A stretch of DNA of 64,000 bases from Rhizomicrobium electricum (GTDB lineage Bacteria > Pseudomonadota > Alphaproteobacteria > Micropepsales > Micropepsaceae), in assembly GCF_011762045.1 (NCBI RefSeq), contig NZ_JAASQS010000005.1, positions 124,001-188,000 of the forward strand, in the 5' to 3' direction. Position 1 is the first letter of the stretch; each line of letters begins with the position of its first letter. The notes beneath the pieces were generated by a model that did not search any database, was not told the origin of the DNA, and saw only the letters and a program-made list of their open reading frames with translations. A program made the position numbers and the translations under genes. Shown piece after piece: positions 37,503 to 61,466 of the stretch.

Positions 37503-38315
37503 ATGCGTAATGCCTCGCAGAGCACCGGTGCGATGGGAGCCCACTCCCCATCCGTCGGCGGCATGGCCGGTTCCAACCTCACCTTCCGCGTGATGGAAGA
37601 CATCGGCATCGCCGTCGTCACCGGGCACTATTCCGAAGACAATCCATTTCCGATCGAGGCCGTGCTCTGCGAAAAGTACAACGTCTCGCGCAGCGTCTTG
37701 CGCGAGGCGGTGAAGATGCTCACCGCGAAAGGCTTGATCGCCGCGCGTCCGCGTCACGGTACCTGGGTGCTGCCCGAACGGTCGTGGAATTTCCTCGACC
37801 CCGACGTGCTGCGCTGGCTGTTGGAGCGCAAGCTGTCGTTCCAGCTCCTCTCCGAGTTCACCCAGATGCGCATGGCGGTGGAGCCGGTCGCGGCGGCCAT
37901 GGCGGCCGAATTCGCCGGGCGCGAAGAAATCGCCGCCATCACCAACGCGATCAACCGCATGGTGGCGGCCGAGCATGGCGACGACGATCCCTTGACCAGC
38001 GACATCGCCTTCCACGTCGCGGTGATGCGCGCCAGCGGCAACCGCTTCTACGCCCAGATGTGCGATATGATCGATACCGCCGCGCGCTTCTCGATCCGCG
38101 CCACCAACTTCTTCAAGGGCGTGGCGCAGGCCTCGGCCGCCGACCACAAGAAGGTCGCCGATGCCATCGTGAACGGCGATGCCGAAGCAGCCAGCGCGGC
38201 AATGCGGTTCCTGATGCAGGAAGCGCTGGACCTCATCGCCTATGCCAAAACCCAGACGGCCAAGCCGCCGGTCCTGCCCACGCACGGCATCGAAAACCAG
38301 ATCCCGGCGGAATAA
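37503..38315 (+). CDS. GntR-family regulator, FadR/FCD subgroup (DgoR-like)
   Basis: A 270-residue repressor. The winged helix spans ~30-95 (PFPIEAVLCEKYNVSRSVLREAVKMLTAKGLIAARPRHGTWVLP), and the phrase SWNFLDPDVLRWLLE is typical of the DgoR/galactonate-type group. The FCD ligand domain (~110-235) keeps the metal-binding pattern with D/H in DIAFHVAVMRASGN and the later SAADHKKVADAI. It would sense a small sugar acid or sugar. It is convergent with the GH31-GH35 operon and is the only transcription regulator in the polysaccharide locus, so it is the first candidate for its local control. Confidence 0.88.
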   Translation: MRNASQSTGAMGAHSPSVGGMAGSNLTFRVMEDIGIAVVTGHYSEDNPFPIEAVLCEKYNVSRSVLREAVKMLTAKGLIAARPRHGTWVLPERSWNFLDPDVLRWLLERKLSFQLLSEFTQMRMAVEPVAAAMAAEFAGREEIAAITNAINRMVAAEHGDDDPLTSDIAFHVAVMRASGNRFYAQMCDMIDTAARFSIRATNFFKGVAQASAADHKKVADAIVNGDAEAASAAMRFLMQEALDLIAYAKTQTAKPPVLPTHGIENQIPAE

Positions 38316-38322
38316 GGCAGTT

Positions 38323-38353
38323 TCAGCGCGCGTACCGGAAGCACGCGCGCTGA
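38323..38353. terminator. Hairpin between convergent genes
   Basis: An 11-base perfect stem (TCAGCGCGCGT / ACGCGCGCTGA) with a nine-base loop. It lacks a clear T-run, but its place between two convergent stops suggests a bidirectional terminator. Confidence 0.5.
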
Positions 38354-38359
38354 TTCAAT

Positions 38360-41299
38360 TCACTTCCGTTTCACCTCGACCGCTTCGCCGCTGTACTTCA
38401 CGACTTCGGCGCCCTTGGCGTCGAAATCGAGCGCGGTCTTGGTCGGTCCCGAGATGAAGCGGACCTTGAAGGTACGCGCCGCGATCATGCCGGGGAACGA
38501 GCCCTTGCGCGCGCCGATGATGAGCGTGCCGGTCGCTTCGTTCCAGGCCACCGGAATGCGCGCGAAGGCGCCCTTCTGATAACCGGTCGACGTGCCGTCG
38601 TCCTCGTAAAGATCGAAGTGGCCGTCCTTGCCGGTGTAGACGGTGAGCGTGATCGGCGCACCGGGCTTTTCGCCCGTGTACTGCTGCGCCACGCCGGTCG
38701 GCACGACGGCGCCTTCCTTGACGAACAGCGGCATGCGATCGAGCGGCGCCTTGGCGGTAATGGTATGGCCGCCCTCGTACACCGCGCCGGAGAAGTAATC
38801 GTACCAGCGCGTGCCGGCCGGCAGATAGACCGACCGCGACGTCGCCTTGTACTCCGTCACCGGCGCCACCAGGAACGACGGCCCGAACAGATATTCGTCG
38901 GCGATGTTGCGAACCGCGGGATCGTTCGGGAAGTCCATCACCAGGCCGCGCATCATCGTGCCGGCCTTGAAATAGGTATCGGCCGCAAGCGTGTAGATGT
39001 AGGGCAACAGCCGGTAGCGGAGCTTGTCGTAGAAGGCGAGGATGTTGAACACCTTCGTGCCCGGCTTGGCGATTTCGAAGGTCTCGCGCTTGACCAGTTC
39101 GCCATGGCTGCGGAACACCGGCACGAACGCGCCGAACTCGTACCAGCGGGTATAAAGCTCGGTCCACTCCGCCTTGTCGGCCGGCTTGGGCTCGATCTTC
39201 TTCTTGCCGACTTCCATCGTGAGATAGCGGTTTTCCAGGGTGTAACCGCCGATGTCGAACGTCCAGTTCGGGATGCCCGACATCGAGAAATTCACGCCGG
39301 CCGAAATCTGCTCGCGCATGTCGCTCCAACGCGCCGCGATATCGCCGCTCCACACCGCCGCATTGCAGCGCTGCACGCCGGCAAAGCCCGAGCGCGTCAG
39401 GATGAAGGTGCGCTTGTCGGGATGCGCCGCCTGCCAGTGATCGTAGAAGCCGCAGACGTGCATCAAAGGATAGGTGTTGTAGAACTCGGCGCCCGGCCCC
39501 AGCACGGTCGGTCCGCGCATCTTCACCTGCACGTCCATCGCCGTGTTGGAATGGATGTCGGGCTCGTCGTTGTCCATCCACCACGCATCGGGCGCCACCA
39601 GATTGTCGAGCTTCTTCTGGACCTGGTTCCAATAGATGTCGCGGGCTTCCTTGGAATAGACGTCGTAGTTGGACGACACGTATCCCGGCCCGACCCAGTC
39701 CTTGAACTTCTGGTCGACGGAATAGCGGTACATCAGGCCCTTCTCGTCGAACTCCTTGAAGTGCGGCAGGCCCTCATAGAATTTCGGCCAGATCACCAGC
39801 ATCACGTGGCCGTTCATCTTGCGAACGTCGTCGAACATCTTTGGCGGATTGGGGAAGCGGCTGGTATCGAAATCGTGGCTGCCCCACTCCGGGTCCTTCC
39901 AATAGCGCCAGTCCTGCACGATGGCATCGATCGGCAGCTTCAGCTTGCGGTATTCGTTGAACACGCCGACGAGCTGGTCCTGCGTTTCGTAGCGCTGACG
40001 GCTCTGCCAGAAGCCGTAGGACCACTCGGGCATCATGATCGCCGGTCCGGTGAGATGGCGGTACCCGGCGATGACGTCGTCGAGGTTCGATCCGGCGACG
40101 TAATAATAGTCGATGGCCTTGGCGACATCGGAATGCAGCGACAGTTCGTGGCGTTCGGCATCCGGCATCGGATCGAGATGCAGGAAGCGCAAATAGCCGC
40201 CTTCCGGTTTCCACTCCGCCTTGAAGGTGACCTTCTTGCCGGCAGTCATCGGAATTTCGACGTTGCGGTACCAGCCCTGCCAGCCCTGGCGCCAGGAATC
40301 CATCACCAGCTTGCCGTCGAGCCACAGCTTGAAATAGCCCGAGACGTAGAAGCGGAATTTGTGCACGCCGCTCTTCTGGGTCTCGAGGGCGCCGTCGTAG
40401 GTGACGGTGAGCGCGCGCGGCGGCGCCGGCGGCAGATTGCTGGTCCCCGCGCCCTTTTGCTCCTGCATCACGCCGGGCGGGAAATTTTTCTGATCTTCGA
40501 TGAACTGGTAGTTGGGATCGGCTTCGATCCGCTCGGCCAGGAGTTTGCCGCCATCGGTATAGCGCGCCGTGAAGCCGCCTTCCTTGCCCGACGCATCGTA
40601 GATCTTGAGCTGGGCGTTGATCGCGGGATATTCCGCCGGATAGCCGAAGCGGGTGATCGAATAGTTGTCCCACAACACGCCGTAGTTCTTGGTCGACACC
40701 ACGAACGGCACCGCCACGTCCATGTTGTGCTGGGCGAGGATCACGTCTTCGCCGTTGTAGTTCATCTGGCCGTTCTGGTGCTGGCCGAGGCCGTAGAAGG
40801 CTTCGTCGGTGCCGCGATTGAATTCGGCCCGCACGTCGTAGAACGGCTTGCCGTCGACCGTCACCGGCTTGAACGTGGTCGCCGCACCGGCCAGCACCGG
40901 CTTGCCTTCGGCATCGAGGAACTTGACCTCGCCGGTCTTGAGCGAGACCTGCGCCGACAGCTTCGCGGTCTTCACGGTCAGCGTGTCGCCATCCACCGCG
41001 GTGTCGAACTTCACCGCTTCCGGCGCGGCCCGCACCAGGAGGCTCTCTCGCGGCGCGATCGCCGCATCGGGCGAGGACGTGACGTGGATGATCGACTCCG
41101 TCATCACTTCGAGCCGCACCTTCTTGGCGGGCCCGGCGGTCGGGGTCACCACCACGCCGGTGGCGGTCTTCTCCCACGGCGATGCCGGTGCAGCCGGCGG
41201 CGGCTTCGGCGCAAACAGATCGTGTACGGACGAACAAGCCCCGGTAACCGCCAGCGCGGCCACGGCGGCGGTGATCATCAAAACCTTCTTCGAGGTCAT
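38360..41299 (-). CDS. GH31 alpha-xylosidase-type lipoprotein with N-terminal PA14 insert
   Basis: A 979-residue enzyme starting MTSKKVLMITAAVAALAVTGACSS, a lipoprotein signal. After the GH31 N-terminal sandwich, a PA14 domain is inserted at ~240-377 (GFTARYTDGGKLL ... KSGVHKFRFYVSGYFKLWLDGKLVMDSW ... EGGYLRFLHLDP). The barrel has the nucleophile Asp576 in AWWMDNDEPD and the acid/base Asp653 in VWSGDIAARW. GH31 with PA14 inserted at this place is the layout of Cellvibrio japonicus Xyl31A, which removes alpha-xylose from xyloglucan oligosaccharides. It follows the GH35 gene by 24 bases in one operon. The start ATG 41299 has GGAGA upstream; an in-frame TTG at 41314 is less likely. Confidence 0.9.
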   Translation of the reverse strand: MTSKKVLMITAAVAALAVTGACSSVHDLFAPKPPPAAPASPWEKTATGVVVTPTAGPAKKVRLEVMTESIIHVTSSPDAAIAPRESLLVRAAPEAVKFDTAVDGDTLTVKTAKLSAQVSLKTGEVKFLDAEGKPVLAGAATTFKPVTVDGKPFYDVRAEFNRGTDEAFYGLGQHQNGQMNYNGEDVILAQHNMDVAVPFVVSTKNYGVLWDNYSITRFGYPAEYPAINAQLKIYDASGKEGGFTARYTDGGKLLAERIEADPNYQFIEDQKNFPPGVMQEQKGAGTSNLPPAPPRALTVTYDGALETQKSGVHKFRFYVSGYFKLWLDGKLVMDSWRQGWQGWYRNVEIPMTAGKKVTFKAEWKPEGGYLRFLHLDPMPDAERHELSLHSDVAKAIDYYYVAGSNLDDVIAGYRHLTGPAIMMPEWSYGFWQSRQRYETQDQLVGVFNEYRKLKLPIDAIVQDWRYWKDPEWGSHDFDTSRFPNPPKMFDDVRKMNGHVMLVIWPKFYEGLPHFKEFDEKGLMYRYSVDQKFKDWVGPGYVSSNYDVYSKEARDIYWNQVQKKLDNLVAPDAWWMDNDEPDIHSNTAMDVQVKMRGPTVLGPGAEFYNTYPLMHVCGFYDHWQAAHPDKRTFILTRSGFAGVQRCNAAVWSGDIAARWSDMREQISAGVNFSMSGIPNWTFDIGGYTLENRYLTMEVGKKKIEPKPADKAEWTELYTRWYEFGAFVPVFRSHGELVKRETFEIAKPGTKVFNILAFYDKLRYRLLPYIYTLAADTYFKAGTMMRGLVMDFPNDPAVRNIADEYLFGPSFLVAPVTEYKATSRSVYLPAGTRWYDYFSGAVYEGGHTITAKAPLDRMPLFVKEGAVVPTGVAQQYTGEKPGAPITLTVYTGKDGHFDLYEDDGTSTGYQKGAFARIPVAWNEATGTLIIGARKGSFPGMIAARTFKVRFISGPTKTALDFDAKGAEVVKYSGEAVEVKRK

Positions 41300-41323
41300 C
41301 GCGTTTCTCTCCAATGCCTGTTG

Positions 41324-42988
41324 TCAGTACGTCGCCAGCTTGACGTGCAGAATGACGGGGCGGTCGGTGAAATTGAGCCCCCAGTCGGCCTGGTCGCCGT
41401 TCCACACCCGCTCGAACACCCACTTGCCGTCTTTGTAGTGGCCCTCTTCCACCCGCGCGAACTGGAAGCCGTTGGCGGACTTCGGATCGGCGAGGTCGAA
41501 CGTGGCGCGGGCGTGAATGCCGGTGACGAGATATTCGTCCGGTCCCAGCTTGGCGACGGCAACACCGCCGGACGCCTTCTCGGTGCCAGCAGGAATGCCG
41601 TTGGCACCTTTGGGATCCCACGCCTTCAGGCCGAACTGCCATTCCTGATACGAAACCGTCAGCTTGAAGCGGCCGAGCGCGATCTCCTGCGACTTGTGAT
41701 CGTCAGGCTCCGACACGCCCCAGACATCGCTTTCGTACGCGAGCCGCGCCCATTCGCGATCGATGCCGCGCAGGGCTTTGTAGTTCACAGCGAACGGCGC
41801 GATGGATTGCGCATCCACCACCTTGGCGCCGAGCGGCCAGTTGGAATAGCCGGTGAAATCGAAGCCGAACGGCGCAAAGCCGAGCGTGCGCTTGCCCATC
41901 GCAGCATAGACGTAGCGCGCGAAGTCTTCGGAGCTTCCGATCTCGACGATCATCAGCGGATTGTCGGGGCGCGTGTACTTGTCCATGTGGGCGACGACAG
42001 TGGCGCCGTCATGGCTGTAGATGTCGGGCGCGGCGGTGAAGATCGAGGGTGCCGCGACGCGATAAATGTCGAGCACGTTCCAGGTCGGCCCGCCCGACGC
42101 GTAGGTCAGCGGGTCCTGCGGTTTGGTGGGATCGCGCAAGGCGGCGTTGACATACATCGGCAGCGGATAGACCGCCTTGCCGGCCTTCGCGACCTCTTCG
42201 ATGTACGACGCCACCGACCAGGCGTGGAAATACTCGTCGGCATCGGCGCCGAACGTCTCTTTCCAGGTGCCGGGCTGCTTGCCGAATTTGGCGGCCAGCG
42301 CGGCGGGCACCGGACCGTCGAACAGTTTCTGCGCGGCGGGCGAATAATCGCGCACGCTCTTGTAGGTGCCGGGCTCGTTCTCGACCTGAACCATCAGCAC
42401 GGTGCGCTGCGGATCGGCCTCTTTGAGATGGGCCATCAGGGCGACGAACGCCTTCTTGTCGGCTTCGAGCGTGGTGCGCGAATGCGGCGACAGCGCGTAC
42501 GTGACCTGCCCCTTGGCGTCGACCAGATGCGGGAACCGCTTGCCGTCGAGCTTCACCCATTCCGGCGCATAGGCCGGAGCGGTGTTCTTCCAAGTCGCGA
42601 ACCACAACAGCACCAGCCGGGTGTTGTGCGCACGGGCTTCGCCGAGCAGCGTGTCGACCCAGGAGAAATCAAACCGGCCTTCGACCGGCTCGATCTGCTC
42701 CCAGGCGACCGGAATCTCGAGCGTGTTGGCGCCGAGTTGCTCGACGGCGGGCCAGATCTTCGGCAATTGCGAAGGATAGTTGGCGGCGTTGTTCGCCTGC
42801 ACGCCCAGCATCAGGAACGGCGCGCCGTCGACCATCAGGGCGGTATGCCCGTTCTTCTGCGCGATGGTCGGAATGGGGGCTTCGTGCGAAGCGGGCGTCT
42901 GCTTCTGATGACACCCGGCGACCAAAAGGCCAGCCGCGATCAGCGAGGCGACGACGGTCTTCCGCGCCGCAGATTTCTTGCGTTCCAT
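41324..42988 (-). CDS. GH35 beta-galactosidase lipoprotein with DUF5597-type C-terminus
   Basis: A 554-residue enzyme. The signal MERKKSAARKTVVASLIAAGLLVAGCHQ ends in a lipobox. The GH35 barrel shows NTLEIPVAWEQIEPVEGRFDFSWVD, the acid/base Glu205 in VQVENEPGTY and the probable nucleophile Glu349 in MIVEIGSSED. The C-terminal beta domain (ALGRFKLTVSYQEWQFG ...) is the DUF5597 type. This architecture is that of the xyloglucan-specific Bgl35A of Cellvibrio, which removes galactose from the side chain so that alpha-xylosidase can act. First gene of the GH35-GH31 operon, behind a TCATATAA promoter and an operator-like palindrome at 43024-43042. Confidence 0.92.
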   Translation of the reverse strand: MERKKSAARKTVVASLIAAGLLVAGCHQKQTPASHEAPIPTIAQKNGHTALMVDGAPFLMLGVQANNAANYPSQLPKIWPAVEQLGANTLEIPVAWEQIEPVEGRFDFSWVDTLLGEARAHNTRLVLLWFATWKNTAPAYAPEWVKLDGKRFPHLVDAKGQVTYALSPHSRTTLEADKKAFVALMAHLKEADPQRTVLMVQVENEPGTYKSVRDYSPAAQKLFDGPVPAALAAKFGKQPGTWKETFGADADEYFHAWSVASYIEEVAKAGKAVYPLPMYVNAALRDPTKPQDPLTYASGGPTWNVLDIYRVAAPSIFTAAPDIYSHDGATVVAHMDKYTRPDNPLMIVEIGSSEDFARYVYAAMGKRTLGFAPFGFDFTGYSNWPLGAKVVDAQSIAPFAVNYKALRGIDREWARLAYESDVWGVSEPDDHKSQEIALGRFKLTVSYQEWQFGLKAWDPKGANGIPAGTEKASGGVAVAKLGPDEYLVTGIHARATFDLADPKSANGFQFARVEEGHYKDGKWVFERVWNGDQADWGLNFTDRPVILHVKLATY

Positions 42989-43023
42989 GGTGCAGTTCCT
43001 TCCCTCGCCGTCCTTGATATTAT

Positions 43024-43042
43024 TTATATGACAGCGCTTTCG
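43024..43042 (-). promoter_or_regulatory. Promoter octamer plus LacI-type operator for the GH35-GH31 operon
   Basis: Read leftward, TCATATAA (43031-43024) gives a TATAAA-like -10 about 36 bases before the ATG. It abuts TGACAGCGCTTTCG (43029-43042, + strand), a near-palindrome around AGCGCT of LacI-operator type with one end base off consensus. Overlap of -10 and operator suggests repression. Confidence 0.5.
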
Positions 43043-43184
43043 AGGCCGGACTTTGCAGCGGAAATCCGCGCTCCGCAAGCCGTTTTGGAACTTGGAAAAC
43101 CCATTTCGCAACATTGTGTAGACCACTCTGCAGTCGGTTGACGACAGGTCCGCAACCCCACAGGGTGCATCCAGAGGGACGATC

Positions 43185-44627
43185 ATGGACAACCCGGCAG
43201 AACAATTGGCTTCGGCCCAGGCGCTATACCGGCAGGGCCGGTTCGAAGAGGCTGCGGCCAAATTGGAACAAGTGATCGCTGCCGTACCGCAGGCGTTCGA
43301 ACCGCGCGCACTGCTTGGTGAACTGCTTCTGAAACTCGGCCGTCCGAGTGCCGCAATGGCCGCCTGGGAGGAGGCCATCGGACGCGATCCCCGACTTCAA
43401 GCGGTCTGCCGGGACGTCGATACGTTCGACAACGAAGACGAGCGCAATACCGTGGCGCTGGAGAACTGCCGCCACATCCTCACCCACTATCCCGCCTATG
43501 CGCCGGCGTATTACGGCATGGCGTGCGCATACCTGAATCTCGGCCGGGCGGTCGAAGCCTGCCGCGCCGCCGAACGGGCGCTGATGATCGATGCGACGGT
43601 CCCGACTTACTACCATCCGCTGGTCCACGCCGGAAACGCCAAGCAAAAGGCCCAGGCCATTGCGATGCTGGAAAAGCTGGCGCAACACGAGGACGCGCTC
43701 GACGCGCAGGACCGCTCCACCCTGCACTTCCTGCTGGCAAAAGCCGCAGACCGCAGCCGCCCCGCGGAAGCCTTCGCCCATCTCGAGATGGCCAATGCCG
43801 CCAAACGAAGCCTGATTGCCTATGACGAAGCGCGCGAACTCGGACAGATGCAGGCTGCCGCCGATGCCTTCACGCCCGAACTGCTCGCAACACGGCGCGG
43901 ATCGGGATGCATCAGTTCGTTACCCGTGTTCGTTGTCGGCATGCCGCGATCCGGAACCTCTTTGGTCGAGCAAATTCTGGCCAGCCATCCGGAGGTGCAC
44001 GGCGCCGGCGAAATCACGCCCCTGCCCGATCTCGTTGCGAACGGAGCGGCCGGAGCGGATTATCCGCGGGGTGTCGCCGCGGCGACCGCCGACGCACTGG
44101 CCAGCCTCGGCGAAGCCTATGTCCGCAAAGTAACGGCGATCGCACCGGCCGCCCATCGTATCGTCGACAAGTTCCCCTACAATTTCCTGCATGTCGGCCT
44201 CATTCATCTGGCCCTGCCGCAGGCGAAAATTATTCACATCCGCCGCGATCCGCTGGACACCTGCTTTTCGTGCTTTCAGCAATCCTTTGCCGGCGATGTC
44301 GGCTTTGCCTACGACCTCGGCGAACTCGGCCGCTACTACAAGGCCTACGATGCCTTGATGGCGCACTGGCGGTCAGTGCTGCCGGCCGGCGCGATGCTGG
44401 AAATCCAATACGAAGACCTAGTGAAAGACCTGCCGGCGTTGGCACGGCGCATGGTGGAATACTGCGGCCTCGAATGGGATGCGCGCTGCCTCGAATTTCA
44501 CAAAACCGAGCGAGCCGTGGTGACCGCGAGCTTCAATCAGGTGCGCCAGCCTCTTTACCAAAGCTCCGTAGGGCGGGCCGAGGCATACCGTCCCTATCTC
44601 GCTGCGTTGCGCGATGCCCTCGCCTGA
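43185..44627 (+). CDS. TPR-repeat sulfotransferase-family protein
   Basis: A 480-residue cytoplasmic protein. Residues ~1-230 hold several TPR helices (ASAQALYRQGRFEEAAAKLEQVIAAVPQAFEPRALLGELLLKLGRPSAAMAAWEEAI). From ~248 on is a sulfotransferase domain: the 5'-phosphosulfate loop VVGMPRSGTSLVEQIL (~252-263), and the 3'-phosphate loop IIHIRRDPLDTCFSCF. These enzymes use PAPS, though the acceptor of this bacterial TPR group is unknown. It is the only gene pointing right among the flanking leftward ones. TPR-sulfotransferase genes are often seen beside TonB receptors in Caulobacterales and sphingomonads, so a link to the receptor is plausible but unexplained. Confidence 0.85.
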   Translation: MDNPAEQLASAQALYRQGRFEEAAAKLEQVIAAVPQAFEPRALLGELLLKLGRPSAAMAAWEEAIGRDPRLQAVCRDVDTFDNEDERNTVALENCRHILTHYPAYAPAYYGMACAYLNLGRAVEACRAAERALMIDATVPTYYHPLVHAGNAKQKAQAIAMLEKLAQHEDALDAQDRSTLHFLLAKAADRSRPAEAFAHLEMANAAKRSLIAYDEARELGQMQAAADAFTPELLATRRGSGCISSLPVFVVGMPRSGTSLVEQILASHPEVHGAGEITPLPDLVANGAAGADYPRGVAAATADALASLGEAYVRKVTAIAPAAHRIVDKFPYNFLHVGLIHLALPQAKIIHIRRDPLDTCFSCFQQSFAGDVGFAYDLGELGRYYKAYDALMAHWRSVLPAGAMLEIQYEDLVKDLPALARRMVEYCGLEWDARCLEFHKTERAVVTASFNQVRQPLYQSSVGRAEAYRPYLAALRDALA

Positions 44628-44635
44628 CAAGGCAT

Positions 44636-47835: not shown

Positions 47836-47855
47836 TTATCCGATTGAACGGATAA
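47836..47855. repeat. Inverted repeat in the TonB receptor leader
   Basis: TTATCCG-ATTGAA-CGGATAA: perfect seven-base arms with a six-base centre, about 42 bases before the receptor start codon. It may be a regulator site or a leader hairpin. Confidence 0.5.
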
Positions 47856-50740: not shown

Positions 50741-50777
50741 GCAAAAGCCCCACAAGCGCATTGCGTCGCGCGCAAAC

Positions 50778-50785
50778 TTATATGA
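50778..50785 (-). promoter_or_regulatory. TCATATAA promoter octamer for GH95
   Basis: On the minus strand TCATATAA-G gives a -10-like TATAAG about 38 bases before the GH95 ATG. The same octamer precedes GH35 and the second GH31. The plus-strand GH74 promoter must lie in the same 88-base gap. Confidence 0.5.
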
Positions 50786-50828
50786 TTTATTCCCGCCAAA
50801 GAAAGTGATCGCGCCCAGGAGAGGCAAA

Positions 50829-53153: not shown

Positions 53154-53528
53154 AGTTTGGTTAGTGTGCTCGAAGGAGACGTCCAATCATCGCTTAGAGT
53201 GGGCACCAACCAGTCGCTTACAGCCGGCCTAGAGCGCCAGCCAGAATTAGGCCATATTTCCGATCATTTGTATGATAAGTCGACGAACAATTTGCAATCG
53301 TTCTCCGACTTACCTCATCTGCCGGGCATGCGATTTTCCGTCGCTTCCGGTCGAAGCCGGCAGCATGAGACCGGGTCTGGTAATTCTGTGAATTCATATC
53401 CTTGGCTCCGATTTCGGATCCGGTTCGTCGCCCCCAATCTAGCGCCTGCATCCAAACGCCGCACCTTAAAAACACGTGACCTGCGCCTGAGGGTCGCCGA
53501 ACGCAGTGTTTCCGCCCGCCCGCATTGG
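53154..53528. other. Gene-free stretch before the second GH31
   Basis: About 375 bases with short frames only. No gene, RNA or repeat is recognised. The right end leads into the promoter of the GH31 gene. Confidence 0.4.
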
Positions 53529-53536
53529 TCATATAA
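53529..53536 (+). promoter_or_regulatory. TCATATAA promoter octamer for the second GH31
   Basis: TCATATAA-AT gives a TATAAA-like -10 about 45 bases before the ATG at 53581. It is identical to the octamer before GH35 and GH95. Confidence 0.5.
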
Positions 53537-53580
53537 ATTCCACAAATCAACCACCGCATGGTTTGACGGGGACACCGCTC

Positions 53581-56421
53581 ATGAGACTGGCATTGTTCAC
53601 CACGGCGTTTGCCGCGGCTCTATTCCTCATCCCCGCTACGGCAGCTCCGGCAAATTCGCCCGAGGTCCGCACCATCGCCAACGGCGCCGCCCTCGATCGC
53701 GGTGGCATGCACGTCAAGTTGGAATTCACCGCGCCGGGTACCGTGCGCGTGATGAAGTGGACCGATGGCGGCAGCGACAAGAAGCGGAGCCTGTCCGTGG
53801 TGCAGTCCGCGTCGGCAAAGCTGGCGATTAAAACGGCTCAAACCGAAAGCGCTGTCACGCTCGATAGCGGTACGCTGAAGGTCGTGCTCAACACGGCCGA
53901 CGGAACGATCCGCTTCGTCGCGCCGGACGGACACACGCTGCTTCAGGAGCAAGGCCCCGCCCAGTTCTCCCCCACCGGCCTCAAGCAGGAACCGAAAGCG
54001 TTCTCGATCCGGCAGGATTTCAAGCTCGCCGCCGGCGAAGGCATCTACGGCTTCGGCCAGAGCCAGGACGGCGTGTTCAACTGGCGCGACCATAGCGCGA
54101 AGATCGTGCAGGCCAACACCGCAGCGGTGACGCCGGTGCTGGTGTCGACCAACGGCTACGGCATCTTCTGGGACAATTATTCGAAGACGCTGTGGAACGA
54201 CGACGCCAAGGGCGCCTCGCTGTGGTCGGAAGTGGCCGACAATGTCGACTACTACTTCTTCGCCGGCCCGACCATCGACGACGCCATCGTCCGTTATCGC
54301 CAACTCACCGGCGCCGCGCCGATGTACGGCAAGTGGGCCTACGGCTACTGGCAGTCGAAGGAGCACTATCACACCCAGAAGGAACTGCTCGACGTCGCCC
54401 GCAAGTATCGCGACCTCCAGATTCCGATCGACGGCATCATCCAGGACTGGAACTATTGGGACGGCCTGCAGAATTGGGGTTCGACGGTGTGGGACGCGAC
54501 GCGCTATCCCGATCCCAAGGCGATGTACGACGAACTGCACAGCCTCAACTTCCACGCCATGACGGTGATCTGGGAAGCGCTCGGCCCGGCGTCGGACATC
54601 CATAAGGAAATGGACAAGCGCGGCTGGCTCTATTCGCCGGTCGGCTGGGCGGGCTTCAAGTACTACGACGCCTACAATCCGGCCGCCAACGACCTGTTCT
54701 GGGAGTATGTCCGCAAGAACATCTTCTCCAAGGGCAACGACGCCTGGTGGATGGACTCGACCGAACCGGACATCGTCAACGCGCTGACCAAAGACGCCCA
54801 CGAATACGAAATGAAGAAGGTCGAGGACAACGCGATCGGTTCGTTCGCGCGCTATCTCAACCCCTATTCGCTGGTGGTGACCGAGAGCGTCTACAAGAAC
54901 CAGCGCAAGGATACCGACAAGAAGCGCGTCTTCATCCTGACCCGCTCCACCTTCGCCGGACAGCAGCGCGCCGCCGCAGCAACGTGGTCGGGCGATATCG
55001 GCGCCGATTGGGGCGTCTATGCCGCGCAGATTCCGGCCGGCATCAATCATTCCATGTCGGGCATTCCCTACTGGACGTTCGACATCGGCGCCTTCTCGCT
55101 CGGCTGCCAGGGCGGCGTGTTCGCCAACGGCGGCAAGGATCCGGCCTATCAGGAACTCTATACGCGCATGTTCCAGTTCGGCACCTTCGCGCCGATCTTC
55201 CGCAGCCACGGTTCGGAAACGCCGCGCGAGATCTGGGAATTCGGCGAGCACACGCCGACGCTGATCAAGTTCGACACGCTGCGCTACCGGCTGATGCCCT
55301 ATATCTATTCGCAGGCCTGGCAGGTGACGCACAACGGCGCCTCGATCATGCGCGGCCTACCGATGGACTTCCCGAACGATCCGGCGGCCCGCGATGTCGG
55401 CGATCAGTTCCTGTTCGGGCCATCGCTGATGGCCGCCCCGGTAACGACGCCGATGTATCACCGCCCGCCGGAAGCAAGCGTGCTGGCGACCGGTCCGAGC
55501 CTCTTCCACACGCCGGACGGCAAGAAGGAAGGCCTCAAGGCGACCTATTTCTGCGACGAGAAATGGGAAAAGGTCTGCCACGAAGCCGTCGAACCGGCCG
55601 TCGATCTCTACTGGTACACGGGCTGGCCGGAATTCATCAAAGGTCCGAAATTCTCGATGCGCTGGGAAGGCAAGCTGACGGTTCCGGTCTCCGGCACCTA
55701 TCGCTTCGATCTCAAGAGCTTCGGCCCGAAGAAGATCTATCTCGACGGCAAGGAAGTCGCCCACAACTACGACTCCATGGGGTCGTGGACGATTCCGCTG
55801 CAGCTCGAAGCCGGCAAAACCTACGACTTCAAGTTCGAGACCAACAACGCCGTGCTCGGCGCCTTCCGCGCTCAGGTCTATTGGAAGACGCCCGCAGCGC
55901 ATGCCCGCGATGCCGCGCCGCTGACGGTGAAGGACAAGACCCGCGAGGTCTATCTGCCGTCGGGAACTGGCTGGTTCGATTTCTGGACCGGCAAGGCGAT
56001 GAACGGCGGACAGAAGGTTTCTGCCGCGGCCGACATCACCACCATGCCGCTGATGGTCCGCGCCGGATCGATCGTGCCGATGGGTCCGGTGGTGCAGTAC
56101 GCCACCCAGAAGCCGGCCGACACCATCGAACTGCGCGTCTATCCCGGCGCCAACGGCAACTTCGTGCTCTATGAAGACGAGAACGACACCTATGCCTATG
56201 AAAAAGGCATCTATGCCACCATCGCCTTCCATTGGAACGACGCCAAGCGCACGCTGACCATCGATCCGCGCAAGGGCAAGTTTCCGGGAATGCTTGCGAA
56301 ACGTACGTTCAAGATCGTGATCGTCGGCGACGGTCATGGCGCAGGCATCGACGATACGGCAAGGCCGGACAAAACCGTGATTTATGACGGTCGCAAAACA
56401 GTCGTGGCGCTGACGCGCTGA
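53581..56421 (+). CDS. GH31 alpha-glycosidase with PA14 inserted in its C-terminal domain
   Basis: A 946-residue secreted enzyme; signal peptide MRLALFTTAFAAALFLIPATAA. The GH31 barrel has the nucleophile Asp392 in AWWMDSTEPD and the acid/base Asp472 in TWSGDIGADW, followed by HSMSGIPYWTFDIGAF. A PA14 domain (~650-775: GLKATYFCDEKW ... VPVSGTYRFDLKSFGPKKIYLDGKEVAHN ... GAFRAQVYWK) sits between the barrel end and the C-terminal sandwich (EVYLPSGTGWFDFWTGK). In the first GH31 the PA14 is in the N-terminal half, so the two insertions are independent. Likely an alpha-xylosidase or alpha-glucosidase on oligosaccharides. The frame upstream of 53581 lacks a signal and is not used. Confidence 0.9.
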   Translation: MRLALFTTAFAAALFLIPATAAPANSPEVRTIANGAALDRGGMHVKLEFTAPGTVRVMKWTDGGSDKKRSLSVVQSASAKLAIKTAQTESAVTLDSGTLKVVLNTADGTIRFVAPDGHTLLQEQGPAQFSPTGLKQEPKAFSIRQDFKLAAGEGIYGFGQSQDGVFNWRDHSAKIVQANTAAVTPVLVSTNGYGIFWDNYSKTLWNDDAKGASLWSEVADNVDYYFFAGPTIDDAIVRYRQLTGAAPMYGKWAYGYWQSKEHYHTQKELLDVARKYRDLQIPIDGIIQDWNYWDGLQNWGSTVWDATRYPDPKAMYDELHSLNFHAMTVIWEALGPASDIHKEMDKRGWLYSPVGWAGFKYYDAYNPAANDLFWEYVRKNIFSKGNDAWWMDSTEPDIVNALTKDAHEYEMKKVEDNAIGSFARYLNPYSLVVTESVYKNQRKDTDKKRVFILTRSTFAGQQRAAAATWSGDIGADWGVYAAQIPAGINHSMSGIPYWTFDIGAFSLGCQGGVFANGGKDPAYQELYTRMFQFGTFAPIFRSHGSETPREIWEFGEHTPTLIKFDTLRYRLMPYIYSQAWQVTHNGASIMRGLPMDFPNDPAARDVGDQFLFGPSLMAAPVTTPMYHRPPEASVLATGPSLFHTPDGKKEGLKATYFCDEKWEKVCHEAVEPAVDLYWYTGWPEFIKGPKFSMRWEGKLTVPVSGTYRFDLKSFGPKKIYLDGKEVAHNYDSMGSWTIPLQLEAGKTYDFKFETNNAVLGAFRAQVYWKTPAAHARDAAPLTVKDKTREVYLPSGTGWFDFWTGKAMNGGQKVSAAADITTMPLMVRAGSIVPMGPVVQYATQKPADTIELRVYPGANGNFVLYEDENDTYAYEKGIYATIAFHWNDAKRTLTIDPRKGKFPGMLAKRTFKIVIVGDGHGAGIDDTARPDKTVIYDGRKTVVALTR

Positions 56422-56500
56422 TATTTGTAAGCATCACCAGCCTTGTGTGGGCCGGGTGTCTGTTGATAAGCAGGCACCCGGCACCAGCAAGGGACACCGT

Positions 56501-58105
56501 GTGACCGCAACAGAGTTCGACCGCGCCCGATCCAATGCACCCGTTGGGGCGGTGCGATTCCGCAGCGTTGCGATTTTTTCCGTCTGGGTCCTCGCGATCG
56601 TTCCGTTCTTCCTGGGCACTCTGCCGCCGGTGATGGATGTCCCCAATCACCTGACGCGCATCTGGCTGCTCGCCGAAGGGCTCAACCACGCGCCGCTGTC
56701 GGCGATGTACGAAGCGCGCTGGAGCCAGGCCGCCACCAACATCTTCGTCGACCTGATCGGCACCTCACTGGCGCGCGCTATCGGTATCGATGCGGTCGGC
56801 AAAGTGCTGCTGGTGGCGATGTTCCTGCTGCCGCCGCTCGCGGCGCTCCGGCTCAACAAGAAACTGTTCCGACGCACGGGATGGTGGGCGCTGGCCGGCG
56901 TGATGCTGGTGTGGAGCACGACCGCCGTGACCGGCCTGATCTCCTACCAGATCGGCCTCGCCGCCGCGCTCGCCGCCGCGGCACTGGTGCATCCGATCGA
57001 GCGGGCGTCGGCGAAGCAGCTTCTCGCGATCTTTGTGTGCACGGCGGTGCTGCTGTTCGTCCATCCTTTCGGCGCGCTGTTCTTCATGCTGCTCAACATC
57101 GCCCTGATCTTCGGGCCGCGATGGACGAACCTTTTGAACGGCAAGATCGGGCGCATTGCGGCGGTAGCGGCCGTATCGATCGTTCCCGTCATTCTGTTGA
57201 TGCTGCTGGCACCGCACCCGCCGGGCGCCAACAAGACGCACGAAGCCTTCGTCTATTGGCAGCCGCTGAGCACCACGTTTTCGCCCACCACCGTCGGCCT
57301 CGTACTGCTGTCGCCGATCCTGAGCTACAAGGCCTCGCTTGACGTGCTGCTGGTGCTGCCGGTGCTCGGCCTCCTCGGATGGCTGGCATACAAGCGGCAG
57401 ATAAAGGTCCATGCGGGACTTCTGCTGGTCGCAGCCGTGCTGGAATTCATCTCACCGATCTTGCCGATGAATATCGGCGACGGCGGCGCGCTCGTCATCC
57501 GCTTTCCCGAAATGGCGGCGCTGATGGCACTGGCGGGATTGAGCCCGGCCTTCAACACCCAGCGGCAGCGTGCCGTGTTTGCCGGCGTCCTGGCGCTCGC
57601 CGCCGTCGTCCGTATCGGCACAATCGGCTGGATCTGGCAAATGCGGGCGGCCGATGTCGAGCAATTGAAGACGGCCACCCGTGCACTGCCGCCCGGCGCC
57701 TCCGTGATTGTGCTGCAACAGCACTGGGACGAAATCACGGGCGCTCCGCTAGGCCGTCTGGTGGCGGGATTTCCCAGCGGACGCTGCGCCTCCGAGCGTC
57801 ATTACGGCTCGCTGGTGGTGATGTGGCGGCAGGTGTTCATCCCGAGCCTCTTCACGGTCCCTGGTCAGCAACCGCTGGCGGTGAAGCCGCCCTATCTGGC
57901 AAAATCCGTCTATTCTTCGGGCATCCCGTTCACCGACGACATGAACATGCCCATTCCCCAGCGCCTGGATCCCTATCTCAAGCATTGGCACCGGGATTTC
58001 GATTACGTGCTGCTCCTCAATGCCGATCTCGGCAATGCGTCCCTGCCCGGCACGCGCGTCGTCGCCGACGAGGGTTTCGCGCGGCTCTACCAGGTCGTGC
58101 GCTGA
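56501..58105 (+). CDS. Polytopic inner-membrane protein of unknown function
   Basis: About 534 residues with roughly ten membrane helices (SVAIFSVWVLAIVPFFLGTLPPVM, VLLVAMFLLPPLAALRL, WWALAGVMLVWSTTAVTGLISYQIGLAAALAAAALV and more) and a soluble C-terminal part of ~130 residues. The early loop PPVMDVPNHLTRIWLL recalls the DxPNHL...R segment of GT39/GT83-like glycosyltransferases and related polytopic proteins, but no family is sure. GTG 56501 after AAGGGA is preferred; GTG 56447 is further upstream. It lies between GH31 and GH89 on the same strand. A role in glycan transfer is a guess. Confidence 0.6.
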   Translation: MTATEFDRARSNAPVGAVRFRSVAIFSVWVLAIVPFFLGTLPPVMDVPNHLTRIWLLAEGLNHAPLSAMYEARWSQAATNIFVDLIGTSLARAIGIDAVGKVLLVAMFLLPPLAALRLNKKLFRRTGWWALAGVMLVWSTTAVTGLISYQIGLAAALAAAALVHPIERASAKQLLAIFVCTAVLLFVHPFGALFFMLLNIALIFGPRWTNLLNGKIGRIAAVAAVSIVPVILLMLLAPHPPGANKTHEAFVYWQPLSTTFSPTTVGLVLLSPILSYKASLDVLLVLPVLGLLGWLAYKRQIKVHAGLLLVAAVLEFISPILPMNIGDGGALVIRFPEMAALMALAGLSPAFNTQRQRAVFAGVLALAAVVRIGTIGWIWQMRAADVEQLKTATRALPPGASVIVLQQHWDEITGAPLGRLVAGFPSGRCASERHYGSLVVMWRQVFIPSLFTVPGQQPLAVKPPYLAKSVYSSGIPFTDDMNMPIPQRLDPYLKHWHRDFDYVLLLNADLGNASLPGTRVVADEGFARLYQVVR

Positions 58106-58163: not shown

Positions 58164-58200
58164 GATTTAGGGTTGGCGGCGGATTCGGCAGGGGGCTCGC

Positions 58201-60348
58201 ATGTGGACGCGGCGCGGATTTCTCATCGCGACAGGCACAAGCCTGGCAACCTCCGGCGCATATGCCGACGGCGCGCACACGGTCCGCGTCCTTCTGAGCC
58301 GCCTGATCGGATCGCGCGCGGATGCATTCGACTTCCGATTGGAGCCGGGAAGCGGCCAGCCCTACTTCGCCGTTACGACCGATGGCGACACCATCCGCAT
58401 CACCGCCGATAGCCCGGTGGGGCTTGCGCGCGGCGCTTACGCCTATCTCGGCCACATCGGCGCGGCGCAGATGAACTGGGAAGGCACGCGCGTTGCCCTG
58501 CCCGCCCGCCTGCCGCCCGCGAGCATTCCCCGGTCGCCGACGCCGTTCCGCCATCGCGCCTATCTCAATCCGTGCGCCTTCGGCTACACGACGCCGTTCT
58601 GGGACTGGGCGCGGTGGGAACGCGAACTCGACTGGATGGCGCTGCACGGCATCGACATGCCGCTGGCCATGGACGGCCAGGAATTCGTCTGGCGCGCGCT
58701 GTGGCAAGAGGCAGGCCTCAGCGAGGCGGAACTCGACGCCTATTTCTGCGGCCCTGCGTTCCTGCCGTGGCAGCGGATGGGCAACATCGAAGGCCACGGC
58801 GGCCCGCTACCGCAACGCTGGATCGCCCGCTCGCGCGACATTCAATTGAAGTTCATGGCGCGCTGCCGCGACCTCGCCATGACGCCGATCCTGCCCGCGT
58901 TCGCCGGTTACGTGCCCAAGGCGTTCGCGGTGAAACATCTCGGCGCCCGCATCCATCGGATGGAGCCCTGGGGCGGCTTCCATGAAACCTATTGGCTGGA
59001 ACCGACCGATCCGCTGTTCGCGCAATTGCAGCGGCGCTTCCTTGATCTGTATACGGCCGAATACGGCGACGGCACCTATTATCTCGCCGACGCGTTCAAC
59101 GAAATGAAGCCGCCGGTGGGCTCCGACCGCTTCGCCGATCTGGCGCGCTACGGCAAAGCCCTGTTCGACTCCCTGCATGCGGTGAAGCCGAAAGCCGTGC
59201 AGGTGATGCAGGGCTGGCTGTTCGGCATCGATCCCGAATTCTGGACGCCGGACAGCGTCAAGGCGTTCCTGCGCGACGTGCCCGACGACAAACTGATGGT
59301 GCTCGATATCGCCAACGACACCTATCCTGGCGTGTGGGAGAAACAGAAAGCATTCGGCGGCAAAAGCTGGGTGTTCGGCTACATCCACGATTTCGGCGGC
59401 AACAACCCGCTGTTCGGCGACCTGCCGCTGGTCGAGAAAGACCTTTCGACCGTACCTGCGCGCGCCGGCAAAGGACGGCTGGAAGGCTTCGGCGTTTTCC
59501 CCGAAGGCCTGAACACCAACTCGGTCGTCTATGACTTCATGTTCGACCGCGCTTGGCCATCCGCGGACGCGCCTCGCGACATCAATGGCTGGCTCGCGGA
59601 ATATCTGCGCGCCCGCTATGGCAAGACCGATGCACACCTGCTGGCGGCGTGGTCCGATCTGGTGCAGGCCGTCTATCGCGTACCGAACTGGCGCAGCGGC
59701 TGGTGGAAAGGCGCGTTCGGCTGTTACCTTTTCACCAAACGTCCCGATCCGGCGCTTGCGGATTTCGGCACGGAACTCGGCGATCATGCTTTGCTCGCCC
59801 GCGCGGTGAAGGCGCTTGCCGCGCTGTCGCCCGCTTACGGCAGCGAGCCGCTGTTCCGCTACGATCTCGTCGCCGCCGCCAGCCATCTCGCACTCATCAA
59901 GGCCGACGGGATGTTGCTGCAAGCGATCAAGACCGATGACGCCCGCGCGTGGCAGGAATTCGAGCGCATCCTCAACACCGTCGACGCCCTCCTCGGCGCC
60001 CAGCCGTTCGGCTTGCCGCAATGGCTGGAGGAAGCCCGCGCCTGCGGCACCACACCGGCGGAACAGGCCTATTACATTGAGAACGCCAAGCTGCAGGTCA
60101 CGCTGTGGGGCGGCGATGCGGTGCTGAAGGATTACGCCTCCAAGGCGTGGCACGGGCTGATCCGGCATTTCTATCTGCCGCGTTGGCGGGCATTCCGGGC
60201 GGCCCGCGGCAAAGAATTCGACGCCAAGCGCTTCACGGCGGACCTGATCGCGTGGGAGAATGCCTGGGTGCGCGACGGCAAGGTCTATGTCCGCGAAGTA
60301 CCCGCCCGCCCGCTCGACGACGTCAACCGGCTTTTGGGAATGCTATGA
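58201..60348 (+). CDS. GH89 alpha-N-acetylglucosaminidase
   Basis: A 715-residue enzyme with a twin-arginine-like signal (MWTRRGFLIATGTSLATSGAYA). The three-domain GH89 layout is seen: the N-terminal small domain, then FRHRAYLNPCAFGYTTPFWDWARWERELDWMALHGIDMPLAMDGQEFVW, the acid/base Glu301 in YLADAFNEMKPP, and the probable nucleophile Glu435 in FGVFPEGLNTNS. It matches human NAGLU and Clostridium GH89 enzymes, which release terminal alpha-linked GlcNAc. An AGGGGG site precedes the ATG. The next gene overlaps by four bases (ATGA). Alpha-GlcNAc is not part of xyloglucan, so this enzyme adds a different substrate to the locus. Confidence 0.92.
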   Translation: MWTRRGFLIATGTSLATSGAYADGAHTVRVLLSRLIGSRADAFDFRLEPGSGQPYFAVTTDGDTIRITADSPVGLARGAYAYLGHIGAAQMNWEGTRVALPARLPPASIPRSPTPFRHRAYLNPCAFGYTTPFWDWARWERELDWMALHGIDMPLAMDGQEFVWRALWQEAGLSEAELDAYFCGPAFLPWQRMGNIEGHGGPLPQRWIARSRDIQLKFMARCRDLAMTPILPAFAGYVPKAFAVKHLGARIHRMEPWGGFHETYWLEPTDPLFAQLQRRFLDLYTAEYGDGTYYLADAFNEMKPPVGSDRFADLARYGKALFDSLHAVKPKAVQVMQGWLFGIDPEFWTPDSVKAFLRDVPDDKLMVLDIANDTYPGVWEKQKAFGGKSWVFGYIHDFGGNNPLFGDLPLVEKDLSTVPARAGKGRLEGFGVFPEGLNTNSVVYDFMFDRAWPSADAPRDINGWLAEYLRARYGKTDAHLLAAWSDLVQAVYRVPNWRSGWWKGAFGCYLFTKRPDPALADFGTELGDHALLARAVKALAALSPAYGSEPLFRYDLVAAASHLALIKADGMLLQAIKTDDARAWQEFERILNTVDALLGAQPFGLPQWLEEARACGTTPAEQAYYIENAKLQVTLWGGDAVLKDYASKAWHGLIRHFYLPRWRAFRAARGKEFDAKRFTADLIAWENAWVRDGKVYVREVPARPLDDVNRLLGML

Positions 60349-61466
60349 CCTCCGATAAACCCCGCTACGCCGCTCTCGATGTATTCCGTGGGCTGACGAT
60401 CTTCCTGATGATCCTGGTCAACACGCCAGGGCCGGGCGCCCATCCGTGGCCGTTCCTCGTCCATGCCGACTGGTTCGGCTTCACCGGCGCCGATTTCGTG
60501 TTTCCGTCTTTCTTGTTCGCGATGGGCAGCGCGCTGGTATTCGTGCTCGCCCGCCCGATGAGCCACGGCGAATTCCTCGCCCGCAGCTTCAAGCGCGCCG
60601 GACTTCTCTTCCTGATCGGCTTCCTGATGTTCTGGTATCCGTTCGTGAAGGTGACGCCGGACAACCATTTCGCGCTGTTCCCGTTCGCCGACACGCGCTT
60701 TCTCGGTGTGTTGCAACGGCTGGCAGTGTGCTACGCCCTGGCCGCGGTGGCGGTGCGGTTCCTGAAGCCGAAGCAGATCGTGGTGCTGTGCATCGGCATC
60801 CTGGTGCTTTATTGGGCGCTGATGGTGTTCTGCGCCGCGCCGGGCATGGCGTTCGACAAAGTGAACAATTTCGGTTCGGTGGTGGATCGCTTGCTGATCC
60901 CGCAGAGCCATCTCTACCGCTGGGACGACGGCTTCGAGCCCGAAGGCCTGCTCGGCAATCTGCCCGCAACGGTGAACGTGCTCGCCGGATATCTCGCCTG
61001 CCGCTACATCGTCTCGGCGCCCGCTACGATCGGACGGGTGCAGGTGGTGGCGTTCGGCGGCGTCGCGCTCGCCATCACCGGCTTGTTCGTCAGCGCCTTC
61101 GTCCCGCTGTCGAAGAAGCTCTGGACCGACAGCTTCGTGCTGGTGACGGTGGGTCTCGATCTCGTGCTGCTGGCGCTTCTGGTGGCGGTTCTCGACGTGA
61201 TGCGCCTGCCCGTCCGCACCGGCTTTTTCGAAATCCTCGGCAAGAACCCGCTGGCGGTTTATTTGCTCTCCGAGATGCTGATGCTGACGCAGGCGCTCGC
61301 CAAGCCGTTCACCGGTGTCGAACCCTATCGCTGGATTGGCGTGGAGGTGTTCCAGCGGCTGGCGCCCGGTCCGGCCGGCTCGTTCCTTTGCGCCCTTGTC
61401 TACACGCTGGCATGCTGGCTGTTCGGCTACCTCTTGTACCGCAAGCGCGTGTTCGTGCGGCTGTAG
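60345..61466 (+). CDS. Heparan-alpha-glucosaminide N-acetyltransferase-like membrane protein
   Basis: A 373-residue protein with about ten membrane helices. It starts RYAALDVFRGLTIFLMILVNTPG, then WPFLVHADWFGFTGADFVFPSFLFAMGSALVF, the signature of the DUF5009/HGSNAT group. The human relative moves acetyl from cytosolic acetyl-CoA across the lysosomal membrane onto terminal glucosamine; bacterial members (NagX type) occur in amino-sugar loci. Its ATG overlaps the GH89 stop, so the two are made together. In humans the same two activities are consecutive steps: acetylation, then GH89 hydrolysis. The acceptor here is unknown. Confidence 0.88.
   Translation: MTSDKPRYAALDVFRGLTIFLMILVNTPGPGAHPWPFLVHADWFGFTGADFVFPSFLFAMGSALVFVLARPMSHGEFLARSFKRAGLLFLIGFLMFWYPFVKVTPDNHFALFPFADTRFLGVLQRLAVCYALAAVAVRFLKPKQIVVLCIGILVLYWALMVFCAAPGMAFDKVNNFGSVVDRLLIPQSHLYRWDDGFEPEGLLGNLPATVNVLAGYLACRYIVSAPATIGRVQVVAFGGVALAITGLFVSAFVPLSKKLWTDSFVLVTVGLDLVLLALLVAVLDVMRLPVRTGFFEILGKNPLAVYLLSEMLMLTQALAKPFTGVEPYRWIGVEVFQRLAPGPAGSFLCALVYTLACWLFGYLLYRKRVFVRL

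Follow-up and report, generated by a model that had tools for sequence, protein, structure and literature searches.

The closest described systems to the locus reported here are the xyloglucan utilization loci (XyGULs) of Cellvibrio japonicus and Xanthomonas citri. In C. japonicus, xyl31A, bgl35A, tbdr, and afc95A correspond to CJA_2706, 2707, 2709, and 2710, respectively (PMC4285296), and this locus has no physical linkage to endoxyloglucanase genes (PMC8245568). The XyGUL of X. citri comprises GH74, GH31, GH35, and GH95, two receptors, and a CE20 acetylesterase (PMC8245568). Statements on these and the other papers cited below refer to the available passages of each source. In the present study, we analyzed a 64-kb stretch of DNA (G000:C5:124001-188000, hereafter the window) from the alphaproteobacterium Rhizomicrobium electricum, whose genome (G000, 4.73 Mb) holds 62 matches to the TonB-receptor plug. 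Judging from its genes, the region at 36.3-56.4 kb of the window is very probably a proteobacterial XyGUL. We propose, with a probability of roughly 0.8 for the joint reading, that it is a fucogalactoxyloglucan locus keyed to side-chain galactose by a DgoR-like repressor. Its predicted genes are as follows.

36349..37359, plus strand: conserved secreted protein (hyp36k), 336 amino acids, upstream of the GntR gene on the same strand
37503..38315, plus strand: GntR/FCD regulator, DgoR-like (PF00392, PF07729; best PDB match 7c7e)
38360..41314, minus strand: GH31 alpha-xylosidase (GH31a) with PA14 between the N-domain and barrel (Pfam, PDB match, motif residues)
41324..42988, minus strand: GH35 beta-galactosidase (DUF5597 type) with a lipoprotein-like start (closest structures; open reading frame [ORF] 41324-43378, likely start 42988)
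43185..44627, plus strand: TPR-containing sulfotransferase-family protein (PF13469)
44690..47794, minus strand: TonB-dependent receptor, TonB-Xanth-Caul subfamily (TIGR01782, 586.2 bits; Plug and barrel)
48356..50740, minus strand: GH95, predicted alpha-1,2-L-fucosidase (Pfam; best PDB match 7kmq)
50829..53090, plus strand: GH74 endo-xyloglucanase (477.7 bits to 6p2o, Xyloglucanase)
53581..56421, plus strand: GH31 (GH31b) with PA14 inside the proximal C-terminal beta domain (Pfam domain positions)

The minus strand carries GH31a, GH35, the receptor, and GH95, and the plus strand carries hyp36k, GntR, the sulfotransferase-family gene, GH74, and GH31b. The order GH31-GH35-TonB-dependent receptor-GH95 is that of Cellvibrio, with a divergent GH74 and a second GH31 added. 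The two loci agree in their four core functions and in the order of these, including the adjacent GH31 and GH35 genes (PMC4285296); in contrast to Cellvibrio, the window links GH74, a second GH31, GntR, and a sulfotransferase-family gene to them. Linkage of GH31, GH35, GH95, and the TonB-dependent receptor was found by Pfam, NCBIfam, and PDB matches, and the linked endo-xyloglucanase (GH74) is a feature of Xanthomonas-type XyGULs. Accordingly, X. citri and the window have GH74, GH31, GH35, GH95, and a TonB-dependent receptor in common. However, two receptors and CE20 are present in X. citri, whereas one receptor and no identified esterase are present in the window, and the available description of the X. 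citri locus includes neither GntR nor a second GH31 (PMC8245568).

An earlier note on this DNA had named GH74, GH95, GH35, GH31-PA14, a TonB receptor, and GntR, all of which are present at or near the positions it gave. Its comparison with C. japonicus held, the order xyl31A-bgl35A-tbdr-afc95A being reproduced on the minus strand, and so did the layout of divergent units, with the minus-strand core opposite the plus-strand GH74 and GH31b. Enzyme families, closest structures, motifs, and synteny support xyloglucan utilization, as it had proposed. The GntR gene, which had been placed at the edge, is near the left edge, but the edge itself is the secreted gene at 36349-37359, followed by GntR; the locus thus starts at 36.3 kb, further left than the border previously set at 37503. 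The second GH31, the TPR-sulfotransferase-family gene, and three genes to the right of the locus (552-residue membrane protein, GH89, and NagX/HGSNAT-like acetyltransferase) had not been mentioned.

The closest solved relative of GH31a is the alpha-xylosidase Xyl31A (2xvg; 1055 bits, alignment over 940 residues). GH31a has the layout of xyloglucan alpha-xylosidases: four domains with PA14 between the N-domain and barrel, the catalytic Asp pair, and the PA14 Trp. Its motifs WWMD, SGDI, and RQGW were mapped on the alignment with 7kmp, and the roles of the residues were taken from work on XacXyl31 (PMC8245568). WWMD and SGDI are present in both GH31 proteins of the window. The closest structures to GH35 are 3u7v (the best match, a Caulobacter enzyme; PMC4285296), 8fa4, 7kmn, and Bgl35A (5jaw/4d1i). 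Since GH35 scored just below the thresholds of both the Pfam GH35 model (25.8 against 27 bits) and NCBIfam NF051902 (472.6 against 500 bits), its assignment rests on solved structures. The best PDB matches of GH74 are 6p2o and other xyloglucanases. The motifs VENE/VEIG in GH35, SPEH in GH95, and RSDMGG/GDIGG in GH74 were also found, and we take these to be catalytic. We also assume 2xvg to come from Cellvibrio and 7kmn, 7kmp, and 7kmq from Xanthomonas, the PDB matches giving molecule names only. No PDB match to the receptor was obtained at E<=1. The earlier statement that all activities for the side chains are present is borne out for fucose, galactose, and xylose. However, naming of the window genes by Pfam and NCBIfam identified no beta-glucosidase gene in the locus, and no acetylesterase was among the locus genes so named, with no CE20 model or sequence used as a query. 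Scanning the window for tRNAs and against Rfam yielded no matches.

Among 96 genomes of the family, 12, all of one genus, have GH74 at E<=1e-20. Eleven of these genes, including that of the window, are treated here as orthologs (53-100% identical), while the twelfth (G033) is 32% identical. Synteny of the core extends to G051, G020, G064, G016, and G023, with partial synteny in G060, G062, G058, and G048. In the class sample, two of the 385 genomes have GH74 at E<=1e-60: G000 and G106. G106 belongs to another alphaproteobacterial family, and GntR-FCD, GH31a, GH35, GH74, and receptor matches occur together in it (L191, L192), as in the window; it differs in that its GntR is 35% identical, no GH95 or second GH31 match was found in 34 kb, and no operator-like site scored 13 or higher. 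Therefore, this lineage is not alone in its class in having a xyloglucan locus. Because the core is syntenic in genomes of the same genus and occurs in a simpler form in another alphaproteobacterial family, a chance origin of the cluster is excluded. On the evidence of homology and synteny, from which the function of the locus is predicted, this is a complete-looking xyloglucan-degradation cluster of an already known and ordinary kind, with good sequence support.

A palindrome, ATTTATATGATAAAT, is present in four promoters of the locus and is weak at GH35. The operator-like sites are as follows.

36313..36336, minus strand: two overlapping sites, ATTGATATGATAGTA (score 16.3) and AATTACATGATTGAT (14.3), 13-36 bp upstream of hyp36k
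43022..43036, plus strand: ATTTATATGACAGCG, upstream of GH35-GH31a (10.9 with the non-window matrix)
50776..50790, plus strand: ACTTATATGATTTAT, in the divergent promoter of GH95/GH74 (18.4)
53266..53280, plus strand: ATTTGTATGATAAGT, upstream of GH31b (23.3; without the seed 8-mer)
53524..53538, minus strand: ATTTATATGACCAAT, upstream of GH31b (23.2)

On either strand, TTATATGA occurs three times in the window, always in promoters of the locus, with one occurrence being the 43022 site. The window and the loci of 17 relatives together contain 25 occurrences (2.4 expected from base composition). Ten of these were flagged as lying within a homology match; nine are 3-410 bp from the 5' end of the match, and the matches holding them probably run past the start codon. 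One site (L034:7340) is inside GH95. Across the G000 genome, 12 occurrences of TTATATGAY were counted (4 for the reversed control) and 8 of TTTATATGAY (1 for the reversed control). Two of the eight are in the XyGUL, five are at sugar genes, and one is inside mdoG; thus, five of the six outside the window are at sugar genes. They are at the 5' end of the gene for a GH2 beta-galactosidase, between an aldo-keto reductase gene and galT, beyond which lie galE and GH2, between this reductase and an IlvD dehydratase gene followed by a symporter and a dehydrogenase, at another GH31, and at a GH39. The site inside mdoG (C9:122989) was treated as chance, as were C1:316057, C3:469797, and C4:224858, which carry TTATATGAY after another base and are within ORFs or at their 5' edges. 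Exact matches to TTTATNNNATAAA numbered four, three of which are the GH2 and galT/aldo-keto/IlvD sites and the fourth C10:134792; with one mismatch allowed, 15 forward matches were obtained against 14 in the control.

The non-window sites yield the palindrome ATTTAT-ATG-ATAAAT. With a scoring matrix built without the window sites, the five best hits in the window were all in promoters of the locus, and four window sites scored at least 15 (mean of 0.17 in 40 simulated windows). Nine of the ten XyGUL genomes scanned, including that of the window, have at least one such site in the XyGUL region. Outside the family, G731 has a single site (18.2), and G106 and G741 have none. Among the matches listed, TTTATATGAY is also approximately 400 bp from the start of a GH31 match in G020 and G051, and a pair of sites 1,105-1,128 bp apart, as at galT of G000, recurs in G020, G051, G027, and G025; gene contexts in other genomes were taken from fetched loci only. 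These results make a shared operator and regulon quite likely.

The best PDB match of the GntR protein is 7c7e (118.6 bits; the next 74.5), which, from its length and residue numbering, appears to be E. coli DgoR, the D-galactonate repressor. The protein has a helix-turn-helix domain, an FCD domain, and, by our reading of the alignment, the metal-binding Asp/His/His of DgoR-like FadR/FCD regulators; Arg102, Asp146, His150, and His195 (DgoR numbering from PMC7674646) are conserved between GntR and 7c7e. GntR was detected at E<=1e-40 in 13 of 69 genomes of the genus, namely, in 11/11 with a GH74 ortholog and in 2/58 others (G019 and G066). G000 has a paralog of GntR at C3:264457-265152, located 4-9 kb from GH53 and GH2 genes and approximately 11 kb from galT, with galE also nearby. 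In a phylogenetic tree, the XyGUL GntRs of G000, G020, G064, G016, G060, G062, and G027 cluster with G051_C112, G058_C28, and G019 (85/99 support, not starred) and apart from the galactan-side copies, while the sole GntRs of G023 and G048 fall outside the group. The regulator of the locus looks like a duplicate of the galactan/galactose-cluster regulator, and we consider its binding to the palindrome to be rather probable, although less so than the shared regulon itself.

A link to galactose is also found in relatives. In G064, the 9 kb directly beyond the XyGUL GntR hold a sodium:solute symporter gene, galT, galK, a gene for an SMP-30 lactonase, and another GntR gene. Sites among these genes are at 4847, 6732, and 7834 of L073 (scores of 23.4, 23.0, and 29.2, respectively). 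In G023, a galactokinase gene with a site of 21.4 at its 5' end is located between GH74 and GH31b. The sites common to the XyGUL and galactose genes suggest the galactose side chains as the switch-on signal. A galactose-derived inducer is our working hypothesis, to which we give slightly less than even odds.

We propose that secreted GH74 cleaves the xyloglucan backbone and that the resulting oligosaccharides are imported by the TonB-dependent receptor. In the periplasm, GH95 would take off fucose, GH35 galactose, and GH31a and probably GH31b xylose, and a beta-glucosidase encoded elsewhere would complete the breakdown. These enzymatic steps are predicted from family, residue motifs, and synteny. 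The DgoR-like GntR/FCD repressor would act on ATTTATATGATAAAT-type sites at the hyp36k-GntR unit, GH35-GH31a, GH95/GH74, and GH31b, and on remote sites before GH2, galT-galE, the aldo-keto reductase, the IlvD-type dehydratase-symporter, another GH31, and GH39. The inducer may be a galactose-derived aldonate such as D-galactonate, and the locus would therefore be switched on via the galactose side chains.

Several observations weigh against this proposal. Because the seed 8-mer was itself drawn from the window, scoring the window involves some circularity; the sites at 53266 and 36313/36322 and those at distant genes are the only ones independent of the seed. One simulated window reached 22.2, close to the best real scores, and the GH35 site (10.9) scored below an AT-rich stretch at 16442 (14.1), which we took as chance. 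The promoter of the receptor has no good site with the non-window matrix. In the alignment with DgoR, the pocket residues Gln173 and Trp181 have no match (PMC7674646), and the candidate operator (T-n-A-T, 3 nt, A-T-n-A) has A/T where TNGT/ACNA has G/C. Proteins that are 60-70% identical may bind distinct motifs (PMC4494728), and the identity between GntR and its G000 paralog (62%) is inside this range. Motif density was higher in the 13 genomes with GntR than in the 56 without it (1.54 vs 0.56 per Mb; Mann-Whitney p 4e-5), as it was on splitting by GH74 (1.74 vs 0.56 per Mb); however, these statistics ignore kinship among the genomes, and the reversed control was also denser (0.47 vs 0.27 per Mb, p 0.06, by GntR; 0.52 vs 0.27, p 0.03, by GH74). 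Moreover, no GH95 match was found in the loci of G051 and G016, the rest of these genomes not having been searched.

The palindrome may instead be bound by another regulator, such as a global sugar regulator encoded elsewhere, with GntR acting on its own promoter or on nothing. We regard this as unlikely. It would account for G025, which has the G000-like site pair and no close GntR at E<=1e-40, and for G048, in which the locus and GntR are present and no site is found in the locus. Similarly, among the matches listed, sites are lacking near the paralogs of G016 (no TTTATATGAY within 100 kb) and G019 (no TTATATGA in 20 kb around its GntR). The occurrence of GntR with GH74 in every case and the higher motif density argue against it, as does the candidate operator, which keeps the 3-nt spacing given for DgoR and most FadR-subfamily sites (PMC4494728). 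Furthermore, in eight genomes (G000, G020, G023, G048, G051, G058, G060, and G064), sites are approximately 3-13 kb from the paralogous GntR among the matches listed. The nature of the effector is more evenly contested. FadR-subfamily regulators bind carboxylic acids generally (PMC4494728), and an effector derived from L-fucose (L-fuconate) or D-xylose is a plausible competitor that falls a little behind a galactose-derived one. The predicted regulon takes in GH31 and GH39, and in the G060 locus, the interval from GH31a to GntR carries genes for an MFS protein, an amidohydrolase, an aldo-keto reductase, and an SDR, which would better fit L-fucose oxidation, and hence a fucose-derived inducer there. 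However, a homolog of this amidohydrolase was not found in G000 by a search that had no positive control, and the paralogous regulator and perfect palindromes are located with galT, galE, GH2, and GH53. This last association also bears on the substrate. Since the predicted regulon is common to a galactan cluster (GH53, GH2), the true substrate might be another fucosylated and galactosylated plant glycan, such as an arabinogalactan or pectic side chain, of which GH74 and GH31 would attack minor components. This is highly improbable given the presence in one unit of a xyloglucanase-like GH74, an Xyl31A-type GH31 (RQxW in PA14), a Bgl35A-type GH35, and GH95, a set that matches two experimentally studied loci (PMC4285296, PMC8245568).

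The role of GH31b has to be weighed in the same manner. Its PA14 occupies residues 674-800 of the long ORF, splitting the GH31_3rd match into two stretches; it thus departs from the canonical layout of xyloglucan alpha-xylosidases, with PA14 within the C-terminal beta domain and the RQxW motif of GH31a absent. These features raise the possibility that GH31b is another alpha-glycosidase recruited to the regulon, which we hold with reserve. A relative in G673 (approximately 40% identical) is beside two GH29 genes and GH62, GH27-like (Melibiase_2), and CE2-like genes, with no GH74 match within 36 kb, and the AlphaFold model of GH31b was discarded as too poor (mean predicted local distance difference test [pLDDT] 55.5, 7-row alignment). 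On the other hand, GH31b retains the catalytic Asp pair and the Trp of WWMD, SGDI, and DWNYW, with the latter corresponding by alignment to the XacXyl31 Trp reported to block C6 sugars (PMC8245568). Trp290, Asp392, and Asp472 are invariant in 7/7 alignment rows, and the nearest structures are alpha-xylosidases. GH31b adjoins GH74 in G051, G020, G016, and G064 and is on the same contig in G023; it is elsewhere in G062, and no copy was matched in G060, G058, or G048. We infer that GH31b is an alpha-xylosidase. G673 and G822, both outside the genus, share its layout; in each, the first of the GH31_3rd stretches ends at profile position 39-40. Besides that of G000 itself, only the matches of these two span the PA14 region (10 matching genomes in a phylum sample of 398 at E<=1e-90, two candidates scored per genome). 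By its sequence, this conserved GH31 with a shifted PA14 is new relative to the known loci.

Other genes and elements of the locus were also noted. hyp36k is 41-77% identical to sequences of eight relatives; it has repeated cysteine-bearing segments and is kept beside GntR, under the same motif, in several relatives. It had no Pfam match (longer ORF), no NCBIfam match (348-residue version), and no PDB fold match at E<=0.001 with its AlphaFold model (mean pLDDT 78.3, fair). A relative of hyp36k (41%) is located approximately 8 kb from another GH74 of G000 (L038), one of two further GH74 genes (40% and 35%) present elsewhere in this genome (L037, L038), near receptor-like matches. The TPR-sulfotransferase-family gene, which separates GH35 from the receptor, has matches next to the receptor of four relatives: G020, G060, G062, and G023. 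An inverted repeat, TTATCCG-ATTGAA-CGGATAA, at 47836-47855 upstream of the receptor is unlike the shared operator and may be a site for another regulator. Two tryptophan-halogenase family genes are beside the G060 xyloglucan locus (L074:490-3561) and one is also in the G673 cluster; a look-alike ORF in the G106 locus (L192:507-1997) is a candidate of this type. A 650-residue gene in the G060 locus, considered as a CE20 candidate, had no Pfam or PDB match.

The earlier note had extended the locus to 61466. However, 56.4-61.5 kb does not resemble a xyloglucan module and contains the following neighbors, which are not part of the core.

56447..58105, plus strand: 552-residue multi-pass membrane protein (no Pfam/NCBIfam match)
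58201..60348, plus strand: GH89 alpha-N-acetylglucosaminidase (NAGLU; PF05089, 403.9 bits)
60345..61466, plus strand: NagX/HGSNAT-like transmembrane N-acetyltransferase (PF07786; NF046061, 131.5 bits)

Among the relatives' loci scanned, the membrane protein had a match only in G051; its early DVPNH motif hints at a GT-C-type glycosyltransferase. In both the window and G051, the start of the NagX-like gene and the stop of GH89 share 4 nt (ATGA). The two genes are adjacent in all five family genomes having GH89 and are beside the XyGUL in only two of them; in G020, G016, and G062, the pair is elsewhere. Pfam-named genes near it are a receptor plug (G016 and G062), GH30 (G062 and G020), and GH3 and LacI (G020), and the three GH89 clusters have no site of 15 or more. 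We rejected the pair as a part of the xyloglucan system, as it moves independently of the XyGUL. The pairing was countable in the family only, because GH89 occurs in just one (G000) of the 385 class genomes; of 14 named control genomes, Caulobacter vibrioides and Bacteroides ihuae also matched.

NagX has been proposed to acetylate periplasmic glucosamine, similar to human HGSNAT on heparan (PMC9007349). The window protein matches the NagX model, and the His-containing VHADWFGFT is kept in it and in the three relatives with a sequence at hand. However, it is far under the NagX cut-off (131.5 bits vs 480 for NF046061), and its gene overlaps GH89. Accordingly, it may act like a NagX/HGSNAT relative and was not filed as NagX. 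Purely by analogy, the GH89-NagX-like pair could be a bacterial counterpart of HGSNAT and NAGLU, which act in this order in lysosomes.

Xyloglucan sensing by Gram-negative bacteria outside Bacteroidota seems to have been little described. In a 2024 review on hemicellulase regulation, "GntR" is absent from the main text, and the sole xyloglucan regulator in its available passages is the Ruminiclostridium two-component system XygS/XygR, in the reference list (PMC10766802). Among the literature matches listed, from which subscription journals are largely missing, no title concerned an alphaproteobacterial xyloglucan locus or its regulator. The novelty of the present study lies in the predicted regulon, of DgoR type and linked to galactose; with an operator and a regulator named, the question of binding becomes directly approachable. 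The shifted-PA14 GH31 offers a handle on whether the position of PA14 sets side-chain specificity. We tentatively speculate that a galactonate-sensing (DgoR-type) regulator was duplicated from a galactan/galactose cluster, that its operator spread through the xyloglucan locus, and that the same regulon recruited a GH31 with PA14 at a new insertion point. If this is true, the cell would read xyloglucan by its galactose side chains, and the shifted-PA14 GH31 would represent a distinct alpha-xylosidase architecture.

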